Shown here piece by piece: positions 48,122 to 58,198 of a stretch of 64,000 nt of DNA. Source of the DNA: Candidatus Poribacteria bacterium (GTDB lineage: Bacteria; Poribacteria; WGA-4E; WGA-3G). The notes beneath the pieces are model-generated. The model was not told where the DNA came from. It was given only the letters and a program-made list of their open reading frames with translations, and ran no database searches. Numbering within the stretch: the stretch's first letter is position 1; each line of letters opens with the position of its first letter. The translations under genes and the position numbers were made by a program. The stretch is taken from the NCBI GenBank assembly GCA_958295945.1, contig OY282386.1:620001-684000 (forward strand), read 5' to 3'.

Positions 48122-50518
48122 ATGTCCAATAAGGTAAATAAGTTTCAAATTCTGAATGCAGATGATGACGAATTGATGCGAATCAGTCAAGAAGGGACAC
48201 TGTCACTCAATTTGGATGAAATGCATGCAATACAGAAACATTTTTCTGAACTCCAACGTAATCCTACCGATGTAGAACTTGAAACCATCGCCCAAACCTG
48301 GTCTGAACATTGTGTTCACAAGACATTCAAGAGCCTTATTCTCTACTCTGAAGAAGGTAAGGAAACAGAAGAAATTGATGGTCTGTTCCCAACTTACATT
48401 CAACGTGCAACGGAAGTGATAGACAAACCTTGGTGTGTCTCGGTCTTTTCTGATAATGCAGGAATTATAGAATTTGATGATAAATACAATCTTGTTTTCA
48501 AAGTGGAAACACATAATCACCCTTCCGCAATAGAGCCTTATGGCGGTGCAGGTACCGGCATTGGTGGCGTTATCAGAGATTCTCTCGGAACAGGACTGGG
48601 AGCAAAACCCATCTTAAACACAGATGTATTCTGTTTCGGCTTACCAGATACACCCTACAATAAATTACCCAAAGGAACTCTCCATCCGAAACGCGTATTT
48701 AATGGCGTTGTTTCTGGTGTTCGTGATTATGGCAACCGAATGGGTATTCCAACGGCAAACGGTGCAATCTTATTTGATTCTCGTTATACTGCTAACCCTC
48801 TTGTCTTTTGTGGTAATGTTGGACTTATTCCCAGAGATAGATGTGATAAATCCGTTGAACCCGGTGATTTAATCGTTGCATTAGGTGGCCGGACAGGACG
48901 CGATGGGATCCACGGTGCGACCTTTTCCTCAGCAGAACTGGATGATACATCTGAAAACCTCGGAAGTGTCGTTCAAATTGGCAATCCAATTATGGAAAAG
49001 AAGATTGTCGATGCCTTGTTACAAGCACGAGATCAAAACCTGTTCCGCTCCATAACAGATTGTGGAGCTGGCGGATTCTCATCTGCTGTTGGAGAGATGG
49101 GAGAGGGGACAGGAGCAGAAGTACATCTGGAACGTGTCCCTTTGAAATATGAAGGTCTTGCCCCTTGGGAAATTTGGTTGTCAGAGGCACAAGAAAGAAT
49201 GGTTATTGCTGTGCCTCCTGATAATTTAGATAGACTCCAGGAGATTTGTGATGCTGAGATGGTTGATGCTACTGTTCTCGGTAGTTTTACAGATTCTCAT
49301 AGATTGCAGGTCTTATATGAAGGTGAGACGGTCGCCGATTTAGACATGAAATTTCTTCACAAAGGACTACCGCAACATGTTAAGAAGGCAACGTGGCAAA
49401 TACCTCAGCATAAAGAGATGCAGTCGCGTGATAAGGAAACCGAGGACTATGCCGATGACCTTTGCCAACTCCTCGCAAGTCCAAATATAGCCAGCAAAGA
49501 ATCTGTCATCAGACAATACGACCACGAAGTACAAGGTGGAATAGTAATCAAACCACTGGTCGGTGTCAACAATGATGGTCCAAGTGATGCATGTATTGCC
49601 ACCCCAATTATTGGGAGTGAGAAGGCAGTCATTGTCTCAAATGGTATCAACCCCAAATATAGTGATGTTGACCCTTATATCAGTGCTGCATCTGCAATAG
49701 ATGAAGCACTACGGAACATCATCGCTGTCGGTGGAACACTTGAAAAGACAGCACTACTTGATAATTTCTGTTGGGGTAATCCTGATAAACCGGACCGGCT
49801 TGGTGCGTTAGTTCGTGCTGCAAAGGCATGCTATGACATTGCAACCGCTTATGGTACCCCCTACATATCGGGTAAAGATAGTCTCTACAATGAATATCGT
49901 GACACAACAACAGGTGAACAGCGCGCCATTCCATCGACGCTTCTCATATCCGCAATTTGCGTCATGCCAGACATTCGGAAAGCAGTGACAATGGATGTGA
50001 AATCACCGGAAAATCTTATCTATGTTGTTGGAAATACATACTCAGAATTGGGTGGTTCTCACTACTTTGATATACACGATTATATTGGCAACACCGCGCC
50101 TATTGTCCGCACAAATGAAGGCAAATTGACAATGGAAACGCTCAGTTCAGCAATCAACAAAGGTTTAGTCCGTTCTTGTCATGACTGTTCTGAAGGTGGT
50201 TTAGGTGTTGCTGCAGCTGAAATGGCATTTGCTGGCGGATATGGAATGTCGTTGAGTCTGACGAATGTGCCTACTGGTGAGGATATATCCTGTGATGATT
50301 TTCTGCTCTTTTCTGAGTCAAATAGTCGTTTCCTCGTTGAAATTGAACCTAAAAATCAGACAACATTTGAACATCACATGGAAGGTGTTCCAATCGGTTG
50401 TTTAGGTCAAGTTAAAGATTCACAAGCGTTTATTGTCCACGGGATAAATCAAAAACGTGTCATCAATTCATCAATTGAGACTCTCAAATCTGCCTGGCAA
50501 ACTCCATTGGTTCCGTAA
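48122..50518 (+). CDS. purL: Phosphoribosylformylglycinamidine synthase subunit PurL
   Basis: 798 residues, small (PurQ-dependent) PurL type. Begins with TWSEHCVHKTFKS, then KVETHNHPSAIEPYGGAGTGIGGVIRD and ITDCGAGGFSSAVGEMG, the standard active-site motifs. Makes FGAM in purine synthesis using ammonia from PurQ. GGAGAAAG lies ahead of the ATG. It is followed by purQ; purS was not found nearby. It is slightly longer than many PurL proteins because of the N-terminal extension. Confidence 0.96.
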   Translation: MSNKVNKFQILNADDDELMRISQEGTLSLNLDEMHAIQKHFSELQRNPTDVELETIAQTWSEHCVHKTFKSLILYSEEGKETEEIDGLFPTYIQRATEVIDKPWCVSVFSDNAGIIEFDDKYNLVFKVETHNHPSAIEPYGGAGTGIGGVIRDSLGTGLGAKPILNTDVFCFGLPDTPYNKLPKGTLHPKRVFNGVVSGVRDYGNRMGIPTANGAILFDSRYTANPLVFCGNVGLIPRDRCDKSVEPGDLIVALGGRTGRDGIHGATFSSAELDDTSENLGSVVQIGNPIMEKKIVDALLQARDQNLFRSITDCGAGGFSSAVGEMGEGTGAEVHLERVPLKYEGLAPWEIWLSEAQERMVIAVPPDNLDRLQEICDAEMVDATVLGSFTDSHRLQVLYEGETVADLDMKFLHKGLPQHVKKATWQIPQHKEMQSRDKETEDYADDLCQLLASPNIASKESVIRQYDHEVQGGIVIKPLVGVNNDGPSDACIATPIIGSEKAVIVSNGINPKYSDVDPYISAASAIDEALRNIIAVGGTLEKTALLDNFCWGNPDKPDRLGALVRAAKACYDIATAYGTPYISGKDSLYNEYRDTTTGEQRAIPSTLLISAICVMPDIRKAVTMDVKSPENLIYVVGNTYSELGGSHYFDIHDYIGNTAPIVRTNEGKLTMETLSSAINKGLVRSCHDCSEGGLGVAAAEMAFAGGYGMSLSLTNVPTGEDISCDDFLLFSESNSRFLVEIEPKNQTTFEHHMEGVPIGCLGQVKDSQAFIVHGINQKRVINSSIETLKSAWQTPLVP

Positions 50519-50561: not shown

Positions 50562-51368
50562 GTGAAACCGAAAGTGCTTGTCCTACGAACAGCAGGAACA
50601 AACTGCGATGTTGAAACTGATGTTGCCTTTCAACTTGCTGGTGCAAAAACCGATTTAGTTCATATTCAGAACCTAATCTCTGGCAATACAGACTTATCCG
50701 ATTACCAGATACTTGCTATCCCTGGCGGGTTCTCTTATGGTGATGATATTGCTGCGGGAATACTTCTCGCAGTTGAAATGAAGCATAAGTTGAGAGATGC
50801 ACTACATCAATTTGTAGAGAAAAATAAACTGATTATTGGTATCTGCAACGGTTTCCAGGTTCTTGTGAGGACAGGATTATTACCAGGAATAGAAGGCATT
50901 AAAGAAAAAACAGAATTATCGCAATCGGCAACATTAGCTATGAATACATCAGCAAAGTTTGAATGTCGATGGGTGGAATTAGATACACAGCAGAGTCAGT
51001 GTGTTTTTACTAAAGGTATCAAGCCGCAACTCTATCTCCCAGTCGCACATGCTGAAGGTAGGTTTAACGCACCTAATGAAGTTTTGGCAGAATTGGCATC
51101 TAACAAACAGGTGGTATTCCGTTACAGCAATGGTAAACAATCTTCATCAAACAATATTGACTATCCGGACAATCCCAACGGTTCCGATGCTGATATTGCT
51201 GGTATCTGTGATAAAACAGGCAGGATATTTGGTTTGATGCCTCATCCTGAACGGTTTCTGACAAGATACAACCATCCACGGTGGACCCGGGAAGACCTTC
51301 CTGAAGAAGGAGATGGTCTTGCCATATTCAAAAACGCTGTTGAATATGTAAAAGCAACTTTTTCATGA
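50562..51368 (+). CDS. purQ: Phosphoribosylformylglycinamidine synthase subunit PurQ
   Basis: 268 residues from GTG 50562 with GGGAGAAAG upstream. Class I glutamine amidotransferase: GGFSYGDDIAAG, nucleophile Cys in GICNGFQVL (about 95), His in VAHAEGRF and GLMPHPER. It supplies ammonia to PurL, encoded directly upstream. Longer than the common ~230 residues owing to insertions between the conserved blocks. Confidence 0.95.
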   Translation: MKPKVLVLRTAGTNCDVETDVAFQLAGAKTDLVHIQNLISGNTDLSDYQILAIPGGFSYGDDIAAGILLAVEMKHKLRDALHQFVEKNKLIIGICNGFQVLVRTGLLPGIEGIKEKTELSQSATLAMNTSAKFECRWVELDTQQSQCVFTKGIKPQLYLPVAHAEGRFNAPNEVLAELASNKQVVFRYSNGKQSSSNNIDYPDNPNGSDADIAGICDKTGRIFGLMPHPERFLTRYNHPRWTREDLPEEGDGLAIFKNAVEYVKATFS

Positions 51369-51848: not shown

Positions 51849-51869
51849 TGATGAATTGGAGGAATGTGT

Positions 51870-52277
51870 ATGTCTGATGTAAAAATTACTACGCAGGAAT
51901 GTGTCATATTCTTTGCCTTTCTAAATTATATTAAAACACCAAAAGTGCATCGTGTTTCTATAGAAAAATCTGGTTGCAACGAAGTAATGAAGTCCGCAGT
52001 ATGCAATAAACCACATCGTCCTGAACCAGTGCGGAACCGATCGAAAAAACCAGAATATACCTTGGATGACCTTCTTTCACAGATGCCTGAATATAAAGAT
52101 TTTTTTGAAGCGGTCAAATCCGGTAAACTGAAACCTCATCGTCCAGAACCAGTACGTACCCGTTCAAATAATCCAAAATATAGCTTGGATGAACTCTTAT
52201 CGCAATTGAATGATGACAATAGGCATGAGGAAGTTGAGACAGGTAGTGCAGTAGGCAACGAGGTATGGTGGGAATAA
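51870..52277 (+). CDS. MazE-like antitoxin with duplicated toxin-binding tail
   Basis: 135 residues; ATG at 51870 follows GGAGG at 7 nt. The C-terminal part contains two copies of a PHRPEPVR-x-RS-xx-P-x-Y-x-LD-x-LLSQ unit (about 50-73 and 91-114), ending HEEVETGSAVGNEVWWE, which resembles the toxin-wrapping tail of PemI/MazE antitoxins. The N-terminal DNA-binding domain is not clearly the usual AbrB fold. It overlaps the mazF start by 13 bp. Confidence 0.7.
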   Translation: MSDVKITTQECVIFFAFLNYIKTPKVHRVSIEKSGCNEVMKSAVCNKPHRPEPVRNRSKKPEYTLDDLLSQMPEYKDFFEAVKSGKLKPHRPEPVRTRSNNPKYSLDELLSQLNDDNRHEEVETGSAVGNEVWWE

Positions 52278-52615
52278 TTGAATACATACCAGTCCCGGGT
52301 GATGTTGTCTGGATTGATTTTGATCCGCAAGCTGGACATGAACAAGCAGGTCGTCGTCCTGCAGTTACACTCTCACCATGGTCATATAATAGCGGCACTC
52401 AGAATTTAGGAGTGTTCTGTCCCATTACTACTAAGATCCGAAATAATCCTTTTGAAGTAGCAATTCCAGATGATTTACCAGTAACTGGTGTGATTCTTGC
52501 TGACCAATTCAAAAGTATGGATTGGCGAGTACGAAATGCTGAGTTCTCTTGTTTGTTGCCAGACCAGACCATTAATGAAGTTTTGGATTTAATAGGAATG
52601 TTGCTGCAAATTTAA
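52265..52615 (+). CDS. mazF: MazF/PemK mRNA endoribonuclease toxin
   Basis: 116 residues. PVPGDVVWIDFDPQAGHEQAGRRPAVTLSP is the MazF N-terminus with the catalytic Arg, and GVILADQFKSMDWRVRNAE contains the conserved DQ...D segment. It would cleave cellular mRNA at a short motif. Its ATG overlaps the antitoxin stop region, so expression is coupled. Confidence 0.95.
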   Translation: MVGIIEYIPVPGDVVWIDFDPQAGHEQAGRRPAVTLSPWSYNSGTQNLGVFCPITTKIRNNPFEVAIPDDLPVTGVILADQFKSMDWRVRNAEFSCLLPDQTINEVLDLIGMLLQI

Positions 52616-52727: not shown

Positions 52728-54443
52728 ATGCAACTTGACAAAAATCAGCAGAAAGTCATCAACCATCTGACCGGTCCGGCGATTGTGGTTGCTGGACCGG
52801 GAAGTGGAAAAACCACCGTCGTAACATCCCGAATTTTAAATCTGATCCAGAACCACAATATCCCTCCAACTAATATCCTTGCTATTGCATTCAATAGAAT
52901 AGCCGTTGAAGAGATGGAAAACCGATTTTTACAACAGCAACCATCTAAGAACGGGTTACCAACAATCCGCACTCTCCACGCATTCGGTAAAGATATAGTC
53001 TACGCTAATTTCAAACAAGCAGGATTCAGTCGTCCACCCGAAATTTGGTCAAGTGAGATAGACCGAATCATCGCACAAGAAAGACGAGAAATAGACTATG
53101 CGGCATCTTCAACCAATGTGTCAATCTATAAAATAGAACATATTGAGACAGGGAAATGTTACATTGGACAGTCGACTAATCCTGAACGTCGTCATAGAGA
53201 ACATTTCACACATTCATCAAATGACCGGCTGCGGCAAGCAATCCGTTCAGAAGGTGAAAACCACTTTACTTTTGAAGTCTTAGAACAGGTGCATGGCATA
53301 GATGCAAACTCTCGTGAAGCAGATTGGATTCGGGAGCACAGAAACCGTGGCGGTGTTTTCAACCGTGCTGATCCGATGAGATCAAAGTATAGCAATCAAC
53401 TCATGCTTGAGATGTTCTGTCGTCATTTTGGGCTTGAATATACGGATCATCTTGATAGGGATCCTGAGTTTGAAGACTTAGTAGACAGATTCAACGACAT
53501 TAAAGAAACGGTCATGCGCGAAAAGCGACGGGTAAATACAGGTCTATTTGATGCTAATAGTATTTCGAATATCGTCACTCGTGAATTTGCGAAGAAATAT
53601 GAGGATCAGAAATCTGCAGCAAACGCTGTTGATTTTGAGGATATGATTATCTATGCTGCTCATCTGTTAGAAACCAATCCTGAAATAAGACAACATTATA
53701 AGGATAAATATCAATATGTACTCGTTGATGAATTCCAAGACATTGCTCCAATTGACTATCGCTTAATATCTCAGTTGTCAAATAATCTGTTTGCTGTCGG
53801 TGATGATGACCAAGCGATTTACAGTTTCCGTGGTGGTGATTCTCATATAATGCAGAACTTCTCAAATCGAGATGATGTTGTACAGTATGAGATTACACGC
53901 AACTTTCGTTCCAATTCAACTATCGTAGAGCATGCAAGAGCTTTGATTGAACGAAACAATCCCAGAATACGAAAGAATCTGCGTTCATATAATCCGTTGA
54001 AATCCACAGTTGAAATCATTGAAACTACCCCCGACACAATAAACAAAATCCTTTTGCAGCAAGTTGCGGAACCTGTGGAAACAGCAATCCTCGTCAGAAC
54101 AAACTATGAAGGTGGACGAATAGAGGAGATGTTGCCCGATTTAAACGCTCCGCAGGAGATTGAAGTTACGACAATACATAAAGCAAAAGGTCGGGAGTGG
54201 GAAAAGGTCATCCTAATCCACAACACGTTGGACAGACGGTTTCCTCGCAAAGATAATATCATCGCTGAAGAACGTCGTGTGTTCTATGTAGCGATGACAC
54301 GTGCGAAGGAGAAGTTGGTCATTCTCGGTGGCAATTGCCTGTTTGTTCCTGAGTTTGAGAAGATTCCGAAGAATGTCAGTTATTATTTTCGGCAGTTGTC
54401 ATATTGGCATGCAAGAAGAAAACTGAAAAAAGTTAAGACATGA
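52728..54443 (+). CDS. UvrD/Rep-type superfamily 1 helicase with an embedded GIY-YIG nuclease domain
   Basis: 571 residues. All SF1A motifs are present: Walker A GPGSGKTT (23-30), motif Ia AFNRIAVEEM, Ic TLHAFG, motif II VDEFQD (333-338), III VGDDDQAIYSFRGGD, IV RNFRS, V TTIHKAKGREW and VI RRVFYVAMTRAKEKL. Inserted between Ic and II (131-215) is a GIY-YIG domain: VSIYKIEH, CYIGQS, NPERRHREHF, then READWI and GVFN, with catalytic Tyr, Arg, His, Glu197 and Asn212 all present. A helicase carrying its own nuclease could unwind and cut DNA. The paralogue at 54746 follows directly. Confidence 0.92.
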   Translation: MQLDKNQQKVINHLTGPAIVVAGPGSGKTTVVTSRILNLIQNHNIPPTNILAIAFNRIAVEEMENRFLQQQPSKNGLPTIRTLHAFGKDIVYANFKQAGFSRPPEIWSSEIDRIIAQERREIDYAASSTNVSIYKIEHIETGKCYIGQSTNPERRHREHFTHSSNDRLRQAIRSEGENHFTFEVLEQVHGIDANSREADWIREHRNRGGVFNRADPMRSKYSNQLMLEMFCRHFGLEYTDHLDRDPEFEDLVDRFNDIKETVMREKRRVNTGLFDANSISNIVTREFAKKYEDQKSAANAVDFEDMIIYAAHLLETNPEIRQHYKDKYQYVLVDEFQDIAPIDYRLISQLSNNLFAVGDDDQAIYSFRGGDSHIMQNFSNRDDVVQYEITRNFRSNSTIVEHARALIERNNPRIRKNLRSYNPLKSTVEIIETTPDTINKILLQQVAEPVETAILVRTNYEGGRIEEMLPDLNAPQEIEVTTIHKAKGREWEKVILIHNTLDRRFPRKDNIIAEERRVFYVAMTRAKEKLVILGGNCLFVPEFEKIPKNVSYYFRQLSYWHARRKLKKVKT

Positions 54444-54745
54444 AATAGAGAATATGCTAAAATCGTTTGACAGTGGTCTGTTATGAATTTCACTAATTAA
54501 TCGAACAGTTATTTTTTATTGGTCCAATTAAGAATGAGGGGTGTGCATAAAGAATTCCGATATAAAATATGCTCTTAGAAAGTAGTAGGCACACTCCGTG
54601 GGTACTCCGTTCACAAGTTCAAAGACGCACAATGAATTGTGGAACTACAAACGGCATTTCTGTAAATCAAGCGGGCTCTGAAGTCTGTTCGGACCTGTGT
54701 TGATGAACCAAATATTTATGCACACCCCTCAATTAAGAATTTACT
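54444..54745. other. Gap between the two helicase genes
   Basis: Mostly occupied by the 195-bp IS-derived MITE (54536-54730). No gene is supported. Confidence 0.6.
54536..54730. mobile_element. 195-bp MITE sharing ends with the IS at 31014
   Basis: GAGGGGTGTGCATAA (54536-54550) and TTATGCACACCCCTC (54716-54730), identical to the ends of the complete IS, with 20 bases shared at one end. AATTAAGAAT is duplicated exactly at 54526-54535 and 54731-54740, a 10-bp target site. It has no transposase. Internally it carries GTAGTAGGCACACTCC and a closing GAACTAC, a REPIN-like pair. Confidence 0.93.
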
Positions 54746-57700
54746 ATGTCAATACAATTAGACGAACATCAACTGAAAGCAGTAAAACACTTAGATGGAC
54801 CGGCACTTGTGGTTGCTGGACCTGGTAGTGGAAAAACCGCTGTTATCACAGAACGAATTGTGAATTTGATTCGCGAGTACGGTATTAATGCGAATAAGAT
54901 TCTGGCACTTGCTTTTAATAAAGAAGCTGCTAAAGAAATGGAACAACGTGTGTTACCTGAAATCAGGAAGACAAATTCACCCTATGGAACACCAAAAATT
55001 CAGACTCTACATGCATTTGGTCTAGAAATTATTAACCGGTTCTATACACGATTAGATTTAGAAACTGAACCGACAAGATGGACTGGAGACCCTGAAAAGA
55101 CCATTAGACAGGAAATAATGCAGCTTAAAAGAGAAACTGCAGATGTTCCTGTGACCGTCTATATTTATAGAATTGGTAATAGGTTGACAGACAAATGCTA
55201 TATTGGTCAGACTACAAATTGGAAGCGTAGGAAAGAAGAACACTTGAATGATTCTTCAAATCCAGAACTTCGTCAAGCAATTTTGAACGAAGGAGTGGAA
55301 CAATTTACATTTGAAATCAAAGAAACAGTAAGCGGAAGGATTGCGGACTCCTGTGAAACCAAATGGATTGAATATTACAAGAGCCAAGCTGTATTTAATC
55401 TAGAAAATGAAAATGTATACTTTCAAACAGAATTCGATGATAATCAGGTAACTGTATATAAAATTGAAAGTCAAAAATCGAGGGTGTGTTATTTTGGATA
55501 CTCAAATTCCCCGGAATTGATTCATGAGAAGATGACACTTGTACCAAACGATGCATTACAACAAGCAATCATAGATGAAGGGATCGATCAATTTAAATTT
55601 GATATATTATATGAAGATATCCCTGTCATAAAGGCAAGTGAACTAGTATCACGCGAAATTAATATACGTAAAAACATGGTAGTTTATAATAGAAGTAATC
55701 CGCTCAGTCAACGTTATAGTAATAGACTCATGGTTGAATTGTTTTGTGAACATTTTAATCTCACGTATGAAGAAGTCCTTAAGCATCCTGCAGATATAAA
55801 GAATCTCTCTGATAAATTTGAAAACTATGAAAAGATAGTACGTGATGTTAAAAAAGCTAAGCGAGAAGTTGTTGAGGATTTTTCGAATTACAACTCTATT
55901 GAAGATATTATTAATTTTATCCTTGGTTCCATTAATGATATAGTTGTAAAAACATTTGCAGAAAGATATGAAAAGAAGAAGAAAGAAGCCAATGCTATTG
56001 ATTTTCAGGATATGATTCTCTATGCAGTTTATCTGTTTGAACGCTATCCAGATATCCACGCCAAGTATTGTGAAAAATATGACTACGTCCTTGTTGATGA
56101 ATTTCAAGATTTATCACCTATCGATTATCGACTGATAAAAACTTTATCGAATAATCTTTTTACTGTGGGAGACGACGATCAGGCAATATATAGTTTTCGT
56201 GGTGGTGATTCTGCAATTATGCATAACTTTTACAAACAGAAAGATGTGAAAAAATATAAAATTACGAAAAATTACCGCTCTACTATGACAATTGTTAACC
56301 ACTCAAAGGCATTAATAGATCACAACTCAAAGGCATTAATAGATCACAACTCAAAGGCATTAATAGATCACAACTCAAAGGCATTAATAGATCACAACTC
56401 AAAGGCATTAATAGATCACAACCAATCTCGAATTCCAAAAAATCTCCATGCTAATAGTACAACACGACTTCCGATTAGAGTTTTTGAAACGACAAACGAA
56501 ACTGAAACTCCAAAAACCGATCTTGCTCTCTTTCCTCTCACTGAAAGTAATCAGATAGTTATCAATCAGTCTTCGCAGCAGGTTACAATAGTAGAAAACA
56601 TGCTGATGAGAGAATTGACTAATTCCGTTAGTGAAAAAACTGCAATCCTTGTTCGATATCGGAGTGAAGTAGACCGAGTTAGGGAAATTCTCAAACGTAA
56701 AGGTTTTGCGGAAGAAGTAAGAGATGAACAGTCTCATAAAAAAGGAGGCCCCTTTAATTTCACCGGGGAAGGTAACGAACAAATTAGGGTGAGCACTATT
56801 CACAGTGTGAAAGGTAAAGAATACGATAAGGTTATACTGATTCACAATGCTTTAGGTGAAGAATTTCCCTTTCACGATTGTGATAATCTGCCAGAAGAAC
56901 GAAGGGTATTCTACACAGCAATGACACGAGCTAAGCATGATTTAGTTATAATTGGAGGAGAATGCCCATTCGTTTGGGAATTGCGAAAGGCACACATTCC
57001 TGAATTAGAAAGATTATCTGATAGTTTAAAGTCTGCAATTAATCACAGAATCGATAATATCAGAAGACAATTGGAAAATGTCTCAGATGTTCTACCATCC
57101 AAAATCAACAAACGGTTTTATATTGCCCAAGAACAAGTAGATAAAGTTGATGTTGCATTACCACAAGCGTTAGAATCTCAACTTGCAAGACAGAAAGATG
57201 CAGTTAAGAGAATTATTCGTAAGCAACACGCACCAGAACTTGAAAGTTTGCGTTGTGATATTATTGAAACCGATAACATAACGAAAGAGATTAAAACAGC
57301 ACTCCCTCAACAAGTAAAGATTGCTCAGAAGACCTTCCTTCTAAAGTTGATCCCGATATTAGATAATTTGGAGTCAATTGCTGTCACATCTGAAAAACTC
57401 AAGTTAAATGATGATTTACCTGAATTAGCAACCTTCTGTGAAGATATTCAATCTGCACAAAAACAGTTCCTTAATTTTCTCAATAACCACGGAATCGTTC
57501 CAATTGAAACCATTGGTCAATCACTTAATCTATCTCTGCACGAAGAGTTACAACCTGGGATTTTTACTGATGAAGTATCCAAAGAGGGTTGCGGAAAGGT
57601 GACGGTCCCACGCAAGATAGCAGAGATTTTTACAGATGAAGTATCCAAAGATGGCATAGTAAGAGAATTGAGAAGGGGGTATGTACTAAATGATCAAGTT

Positions 57701-58198
57701 ATCCGCAAAGCACAAGTTATTGTTTCAAAGGGACAGTGGCATGCTTATAGAATCTTTATGGATTTTGAAAAACCGGTGTGTATTGTGACAGATCAAGAAA
57801 ACTATTTTGTTGATAAAGTCTTGACGCTTCCAGAATTCATAAAGGGTGTTGATATACGAGGATTGACAGTTAGATTACATAAGCATGATGTATTGTTTGC
57901 TTTCCCAAAAACAGAGAAGGAGGCGATAACACTTCAACGCCAACCTATAGAAAACATCCCTGATAGTAAATCTATCTCTGAAGACTTTCTCAATTCTGTT
58001 ATTGTTAGAGGAGAACTAACCGATGTAAAAAAACAAAGATTCTATCTTAATGTTATCACATGGTCAGGTTATGTGCTTAAAGGTTATCTAAGGGCATTTG
58101 ACGAAGATGCTTTATGTATGTGGATTGATGAGCAATTTGTAGTTGTCTACCGACATGCCTTACTTAAAATTGAGCGTATTGAATATCTGCCTATGTAA
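54746..58198 (+). CDS. Large SF1 helicase with two GIY-YIG domains, GrpE-like and Sm/Hfq-like C-terminal domains
   Basis: 1150 residues. Helicase motifs: GPGSGKTA (25-32), TLHAFG (88-93), VDEFQD (450-455), VGDDDQAIYSFRGGD, NYRS, STIHSVKGKEY and RRVFYTAMTRAK. Between Ic and II lie an intact-looking GIY-YIG domain (135-218, VTVYIYRI, CYIGQTTNWKRRKEEH, KWIEYY, AVFN) and a decayed copy (235-315, CYFGYSNSPELIHEK, lacking the Arg). Residues 520-559 are five SKALIDHN repeats. The C-terminal part has a GrpE-like domain (about 811-995, LIPILDNLESI, GIVPIETIG, VRELRRGYVLND) and Sm/Hfq-like segments near the end (FLNSVIVRGE...YRHALLKI, 1080-1146). Its codons look more AT-rich than its neighbours'. Confidence 0.88.
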   Translation: MSIQLDEHQLKAVKHLDGPALVVAGPGSGKTAVITERIVNLIREYGINANKILALAFNKEAAKEMEQRVLPEIRKTNSPYGTPKIQTLHAFGLEIINRFYTRLDLETEPTRWTGDPEKTIRQEIMQLKRETADVPVTVYIYRIGNRLTDKCYIGQTTNWKRRKEEHLNDSSNPELRQAILNEGVEQFTFEIKETVSGRIADSCETKWIEYYKSQAVFNLENENVYFQTEFDDNQVTVYKIESQKSRVCYFGYSNSPELIHEKMTLVPNDALQQAIIDEGIDQFKFDILYEDIPVIKASELVSREINIRKNMVVYNRSNPLSQRYSNRLMVELFCEHFNLTYEEVLKHPADIKNLSDKFENYEKIVRDVKKAKREVVEDFSNYNSIEDIINFILGSINDIVVKTFAERYEKKKKEANAIDFQDMILYAVYLFERYPDIHAKYCEKYDYVLVDEFQDLSPIDYRLIKTLSNNLFTVGDDDQAIYSFRGGDSAIMHNFYKQKDVKKYKITKNYRSTMTIVNHSKALIDHNSKALIDHNSKALIDHNSKALIDHNSKALIDHNQSRIPKNLHANSTTRLPIRVFETTNETETPKTDLALFPLTESNQIVINQSSQQVTIVENMLMRELTNSVSEKTAILVRYRSEVDRVREILKRKGFAEEVRDEQSHKKGGPFNFTGEGNEQIRVSTIHSVKGKEYDKVILIHNALGEEFPFHDCDNLPEERRVFYTAMTRAKHDLVIIGGECPFVWELRKAHIPELERLSDSLKSAINHRIDNIRRQLENVSDVLPSKINKRFYIAQEQVDKVDVALPQALESQLARQKDAVKRIIRKQHAPELESLRCDIIETDNITKEIKTALPQQVKIAQKTFLLKLIPILDNLESIAVTSEKLKLNDDLPELATFCEDIQSAQKQFLNFLNNHGIVPIETIGQSLNLSLHEELQPGIFTDEVSKEGCGKVTVPRKIAEIFTDEVSKDGIVRELRRGYVLNDQVIRKAQVIVSKGQWHAYRIFMDFEKPVCIVTDQENYFVDKVLTLPEFIKGVDIRGLTVRLHKHDVLFAFPKTEKEAITLQRQPIENIPDSKSISEDFLNSVIVRGELTDVKKQRFYLNVITWSGYVLKGYLRAFDEDALCMWIDEQFVVVYRHALLKIERIEYLPM
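56303..56422 (+). repeat. Five perfect 24-bp tandem repeats (coding)
   Basis: A 24-bp unit beginning TCAAAGGCATTAATAGATCA occurs five times without change. Each unit encodes SKALIDHN and keeps the frame. The corresponding helix in the neighbouring helicase (EHARALIERNN) is a single copy. Confidence 0.97.

Follow-up and report, generated by a model that had tools for sequence, protein, structure and literature searches.

In UvrD, Rep and PcrA, the 2B subdomain is an autoinhibitory domain, and the 1B subdomain flanks the duplex in the UvrD and PcrA complexes. To our knowledge, bacterial helicase-nucleases have the nuclease either appended to the motor or supplied by a partner. The Rep monomer is activated by deletion of 2B, which is regarded as autoinhibitory (PMC13238157). 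GajB of Gabija, a related UvrD-like protein, has a 2B-like subdomain that also differs from that of UvrD, and it displays no helicase activity in vitro (PMC10681800). GIY-YIG domains have been reported together with ATP-driven motors. In Tlr8p of the Tetrahymena Tlr elements, a GIY-YIG domain is fused to the C-terminus of a putative SF1 helicase, and another is inserted in the HsdR of Methylococcus, although its relevance was doubted by the paper that described it (PMC1564403).

The present locus lies in a window of 64,000 nucleotides, the whole stretch of DNA analysed, from a Candidatus Poribacteria bacterium (contig OY282386.1, positions 620,001 to 684,000). It encodes a small helicase-nuclease, HEL, and a large paralogue, BIG. 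All features of the window described below are on the forward strand.

The motor of HEL

HEL (52728..54443) is a protein of 571 residues with an SF1A, UvrD/PcrA-like motor that lacks 2B and carries a GIY-YIG domain in 1B. Its Pfam matches are UvrD-helicase (5.2e-62) and UvrD_C (1.9e-20). Motifs I, Ia, Ib, II, III, IV, V and VI follow one another in order and are almost invariant in an alignment of 31 orthologues, which bears out the complete UvrD-type motor of the preliminary description. Motif I, the Walker A sequence AGPGSGKT (residues 22–29, 52791..52814), and motif II, LVDEFQD (residues 332–338, 53721..53741), are identical in all 31 proteins. Motif III, GDDDQAIYSFRG, was located by the orthologue alignment at residues 358–369 (53799..53834). 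Motifs V and VI (residues 481–527, 54168..54308) come just after motif IVa because 2B is missing.

The profile of the HEL orthologues was aligned with PcrA (1pjr). Residues 2–107 correspond to PcrA 11–116, residues 278–475 to 167–377, and residues 475–535 to 556–620. The first two blocks show that the insert falls within subdomain 1B, of which the first part comprises residues 91–127 (52998..53108) and the second part residues 216–285 (53373..53582). PcrA residues 378–555, which form subdomain 2B, have no counterpart in HEL, since residue 475 skips from PcrA 377 to 556. Thus 2B is absent, a loss not mentioned in the preliminary description. The alignment itself is computed; for the naming of the HEL residue ranges as 1B and 2B we assume the generally known subdomain boundaries of PcrA and UvrD.

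The AlphaFold model of HEL, built with 48 sequences, has a mean pLDDT of 89. Its best fold matches in the PDB are UvrD, PcrA and Rep (Foldseek, E about 1e-25), with long gaps in both proteins, as expected from one insertion and one deletion. The ordered motifs and the 1A-1B-2A fold predicted by the model place HEL in SF1A. It is not an orthologue of PcrA, UvrD or Rep, as 2B is absent and the PcrA equivalog model gives 211 bits against a cut-off of 911.

The genome harbors a separate PcrA (934 bits, above the equivalog cut-off), and PcrA is present in nearly all genomes examined. HEL as a replacement for PcrA was therefore rejected; the retention of PcrA indicates that HEL is an added function and not a substitute. 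The same genome encodes an AddA-like helicase with a PD-(D/E)XK domain and has two further GIY-YIG loci, one of which we take, from our reading of its sequence, to be a UvrC/Cho-like protein of 265 residues.

Other helicases of the phylum also carry inserts. One UvrD-like helicase of the same genome contains a DEDD exonuclease (RNase_T, residues 656–813) inside UvrD_C (L281 1400–4546, minus strand, about 4669399–4672545), and frames of 1050–1090 residues resembling it occur across the Poribacteria. In this phylum, UvrD motors may have received a nuclease insert on more than one occasion. In another Poribacteria family, the pcrA genes of G048 (L291 134–3382, minus strand) and G044 (L292 218–2980, plus strand) have an intein-like insert of about 350 residues at motif III, where VGDDDQ is followed by CLPAG...VHN and then by SIYSWRG. 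The pcrA genes of G043 and G046 look alike, judged from long open frames.

The GIY-YIG domain in subdomain 1B

The GIY-YIG domain of HEL occupies residues 128–215 (about 130–212; 53109..53372), as delimited by Pfam, the I-TevI alignment and the model. It was said in the preliminary description to be inserted within the motor and not fused at a terminus, which holds; the insert lies between motif Ib (residues 82–87) and motif II (residues 332–338), inside 1B. Pfam matches residues 132–206 to GIY-YIG at 7.5e-10 (39.4 bits; the gathering score is 22.6). Y134, Y145, R155, H159, E197 and N212 are invariant in 31 of 31 orthologues, so that the Tyr, Arg, His, Glu197 and Asn212 noted earlier as retained are conserved in every member aligned. 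A profile of the domain aligns end to end with residues 4–93 of I-TevI (1mk0/1ln0) at E=2.6e-5, with the catalytic residues in register. The structure model agrees. The pLDDT is 91–97 over most of the insert, and strands at 130–138, 144–149 and 180–189 and helices at 152–162, 166–175 and 190–205 appear in the order expected of a GIY-YIG fold. The residue set Y, Y, R, (H), E, N together with the modelled fold assigns the domain to the GIY-YIG superfamily, and cleavage is predicted.

Among the 25 closest usable HEL pairs, dN/dS is 0.107 for the insert and 0.097 for the main motor block; for the flanking 1B it is 0.17 in the first part and 0.08 in the second. The nuclease is thus as constrained as the motor, and a dN/dS of about 0.1 across orthologues shows that the insertion is not a chance event. 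This constraint, together with an inheritance like that of purL (see below), is the strongest argument that the domain does something.

Among outside sequences, the domain comes closest to homing endonucleases of phages and introns (TIGR01453, 47.9 bits). Scans with Pfam, NCBIfam and PHROGs revealed no NUMOD or other DNA-recognition module in HEL, which has neither such a module nor the intron or intein setting of an I-TevI-type homing endonuclease.

Distribution and inheritance

A scan of 84,980 species identified 46 confirmed loci of the HEL type, all of them in Candidatus Poribacteria. The architecture was not found beyond this phylum within the reach of the scan, which rested on two short family motifs, so that distant similar insertions elsewhere may have escaped. 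HEL is present in 54 of the 59 genomes of the window's Poribacteria family and in 0 of 26 from the rest of the phylum. From isolate names we infer that this family is the sponge-associated Entoporibacteria of the literature (PMC8546597). Among the five family genomes without a HEL match, G010 has a HEL fragment at a contig end, and G063 and G065 are incomplete genomes. In G024, a complete genome, and in G069, purL, purQ and the following gene are kept and HEL is missing; the deletion in G024 is clean and leaves part of the neighbouring HNH-gene region. HEL is thus dispensable. HEL is also absent at the purQ region in the sister families, of which G036, G041 and G044 were examined.

The order purL–purQ–small membrane protein–HEL recurs in several genera. 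In the window, the purL homologue (48122..50518), which serves as the syntenic anchor, and the purQ homologue (50562..51368) are the conserved upstream neighbours, both annotated from their sequence. Pairwise divergence in HEL follows that in purL with r=0.83, a value that 0 of 2000 permutations reached; between purL and purQ the correlation is 0.81. HEL is chromosomal, located in a single-contig genome of 5.3 Mb. It is a near-core, syntenic, vertically inherited gene of one Poribacteria family. The congruence with purL and the constraint argue that HEL is a resident, and not a passing defence or plasmid gene; a mobile or plasmid-borne gene would be patchy and discordant with the host genes, whereas HEL occurs in 54 of 59 genomes and follows purL. 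The family-wide tree, the purL congruence and dN/dS likewise rule out a recent insertion or contamination.

In the plasmid and phage collections, no single region of any record matches 80% of HEL, or 80% of the insert plus the adjoining helicase segments. Of 160 viral loci (the best 80 for the helicase and the best 80 for GIY-YIG), none combines the two in one frame. A plasmid or phage origin of HEL was therefore rejected. The phage helicase family phrog_1967 matches HEL at 290 bits, above PcrA, and its profile coordinates first suggested that it shares the insert. However, its genome-wide match positions, 150–283 and then 273–509, run through the insertion point, which shows that phrog_1967 is without the insert, and this candidate was discarded.

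The large paralogue and the optional neighbours

BIG (54746..58198, 1150 residues) is the second, larger relative that the preliminary description saw next to HEL. Its first GIY-YIG domain (55154..55399) keeps the catalytic Y, Y, R, H and E. A degenerate copy follows (55445..55693), with no Pfam match of its own; in all such second copies examined, the arginine is lost and the last glutamate and the asparagine are kept. The C-terminal part contains a GrpE domain (residues 835–995, 57248..57730; PF01025, 2.2e-17) and an Hfq-like domain (residues 1091–1142, 58016..58171; PF17209, 6.6e-5, 22.9 bits, under the cut-off of 27). A helicase-nuclease with GrpE and Hfq-like domains (57248–58171) is an odd combination. 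The C-termini of its relatives have either GrpE with two to four S1 domains or S1 but no GrpE. The structure model of BIG, built with nine sequences, reaches a pLDDT of 52, and its domains are for this reason assigned by Pfam only. A perfect 24-bp repeat of 5.1 copies (56301–56422) runs in frame within BIG (SKALIDHN) and is missing from the aligned relatives; it is a recent slippage in the motor.

In a tree with viral UvrD helicases as outgroup, the small forms fall in one clade with a support of 100, which excludes the large forms. The tree, which leaves the monophyly of the large forms unsettled, points to an early duplication behind the split of HEL and BIG. Fewer than half of the genomes have BIG, and several of its copies are truncated, some of them at contig ends.

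Other neighbours vary. The optional inserts near HEL are a MazEF-like pair, present at 3 of the 21 loci compared, and, each in some genomes, an HNH nuclease and the large paralogue. In several genomes of a sister genus, the HNH nuclease ORF lies between purQ and the helicase-nuclease (e.g. L047 15554–15958, minus strand). The MazEF pair reported ahead of HEL is clear for the MazF/PemK toxin (52265..52615; PF02452, 1.3e-21), while the antitoxin-like ORF (51864..52277) resembles MazE weakly (NCBIfam, 0.0047). The pair was rejected as part of the HEL system because it is optional. Between HEL and BIG lies a MITE-like element with 22-nt inverted ends (54534..54735), which is not part of the system either. 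A copy with 99% identity lies at 4247544 in this genome, where more than 20 other places match parts of the element, mostly its end sequence.

Possible functions

The preliminary description proposed an unwinding-and-cutting machine, possibly for defence or plasmid control. The intact motor, the intact nuclease site and the purifying selection predict the machine; the defence part lacks support, and plasmid control fares no better. The reading that we favour, at about an even chance, is that HEL is a chromosomal helicase-nuclease acting most likely in DNA repair, recombination or fork processing. HEL would load on single-stranded DNA and translocate in the 3′-to-5′ direction. Lacking 2B, it may unwind in monomeric form, like Rep after deletion of 2B. 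Positioned at the junction of single- and double-stranded DNA, the GIY-YIG domain would nick one strand of branched or damaged DNA, so that one polypeptide would combine cutting with strand displacement. HEL would work alongside the cell's own PcrA, the AddA-like helicase and the GIY-YIG proteins of the UvrC/Cho type. Several observations speak against the repair reading: at the loci compared, no DNA-repair gene is a conserved neighbour of HEL, HEL is dispensable, the best match in the defence library is GajB, which displays no helicase activity in vitro, and the patchy BIG with its variable C-termini resembles conflict genes.

HEL could instead be an antiphage or anti-plasmid enzyme whose motor tracks invading DNA for the GIY-YIG domain to cut, akin to Gabija or to helicase-nuclease restriction systems but made of one protein. 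PADLOC gives GajB as its best match (216 bits), the nuclease of HEL resembles phage homing endonucleases, BIG is patchy, fast-changing and often truncated, and in some genomes HEL adjoins a toxin-antitoxin pair or an ORF for an HNH nuclease. The GajB score, however, reflects generic SF1 similarity, because PcrA gives nearly as much and the phage helicase family more. Neither GajA nor a defence-island partner occurs in the 20 neighbourhoods examined. ORFs were clustered across the window locus and the loci of 20 relatives, and among the recurring ones, most of which were examined, there is no ATPase/TOPRIM gene. Membership of Gabija was rejected, as the GajA partner (the OLD-TOPRIM nuclease) is missing and the helicase score is generic. 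No other defence gene recurs at the HEL loci, and no protein with the fusion came from the plasmid or phage collections. A near-core, syntenic and vertical gene also differs from defence genes, which are usually patchy and mobile, and we consider a role in defence rather unlikely.

The RNA-binding modules of the large forms raise another reading, in which HEL removes R-loops or stalled transcription complexes and cleaves the strand left exposed, with BIG adding RNA-binding and chaperone modules. The GrpE, Hfq-like or S1 domains of the BIG-type C-termini would fit this, and the fold search with HEL also returns the RNA-polymerase-recycling HelD. These modules belong to BIG and not to HEL, GIY-YIG domains of the HEL type cut DNA, and no transcription gene is among the conserved neighbours, which makes this reading improbable. 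The kinship of the domain with homing endonucleases might mean that one took up residence in a helicase gene and is maintained chiefly for its own sake, cutting a specific site to spread. Yet no DNA-binding module is attached to it, the family is inherited with purL instead of spreading, the empty site of G024 is a deletion retaining part of the HNH-gene region and not an uninvaded site, and every orthologue of the helicase that was found carries the insert; such an origin of its persistence is very unlikely. We give equally little credence to a structural or DNA-holding module that does not cleave. The second copy in BIG shows that an inactive domain can persist after losing its catalytic arginine, but in HEL no catalytic position varies, and the rate at which the domain evolves is as low as that of the motor.

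The GIY-YIG domain may have taken over the place and the regulatory job of the lost 2B, its contact with the duplex gating the motor, so that unwinding and nicking would be allosterically coupled in one monomer. We hold this proposal as tentative and doubtful. If it is right, HEL would be a helicase-nuclease of a new class that arose a single time, in the ancestor of the sponge-dwelling Poribacteria, and was later duplicated into a paralogue that keeps gaining RNA-binding and chaperone modules. The architecture of HEL in itself provides a small natural test of whether 2B is dispensable for a cellular UvrD-family helicase and of how cutting couples to unwinding. As a near-core gene, HEL marks a genome-maintenance or conflict trait peculiar to the sponge-symbiont lineage and absent from the other Poribacteria examined.

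Comparison with known systems

Helicase-nucleases are already known, but a GIY-YIG domain in 1B of a 2B-less, UvrD-type, near-core motor was not found described. The literature searched holds no family with the architecture of HEL, in line with the preliminary description, whose author knew of no such insertion; Tlr8p and HsdR come closest. Both Tlr8p and HEL join an SF1 helicase to GIY-YIG, yet Tlr8p is a C-terminal fusion in a eukaryotic mobile element. In HsdR, as in HEL, GIY-YIG is inserted in an ATP-driven motor, but that motor is of SF2 and the insertion is single and recent.

HEL shares with UvrD, PcrA and Rep the motor motifs and the 1A-1B-2A order, and these are its best structure matches in the PDB and its best sequence matches. 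It differs from them in the loss of 2B, in the GIY-YIG domain in 1B and in scores far under their equivalog cut-offs. The full-length domain alignment and all catalytic residues are common to HEL and the GIY-YIG homing endonucleases of the I-TevI and group I intron kind; unlike I-TevI, HEL has no NUMOD or specificity domain, is embedded in a helicase and is vertically inherited. GajB is likewise a small UvrD-like protein and the top match in the defence library, whereas HEL has no GajA partner, carries its own nuclease, and has 2B absent rather than altered. AddAB/RecBCD, AdnAB and Bad/Dna2 resemble HEL in uniting helicase and nuclease in one protein or complex, and they process DNA ends. Their nuclease is a PD-(D/E)XK domain appended to the motor; in HEL it is a GIY-YIG domain within the duplex-facing accessory subdomain of a single protein that has lost the autoinhibitory one.
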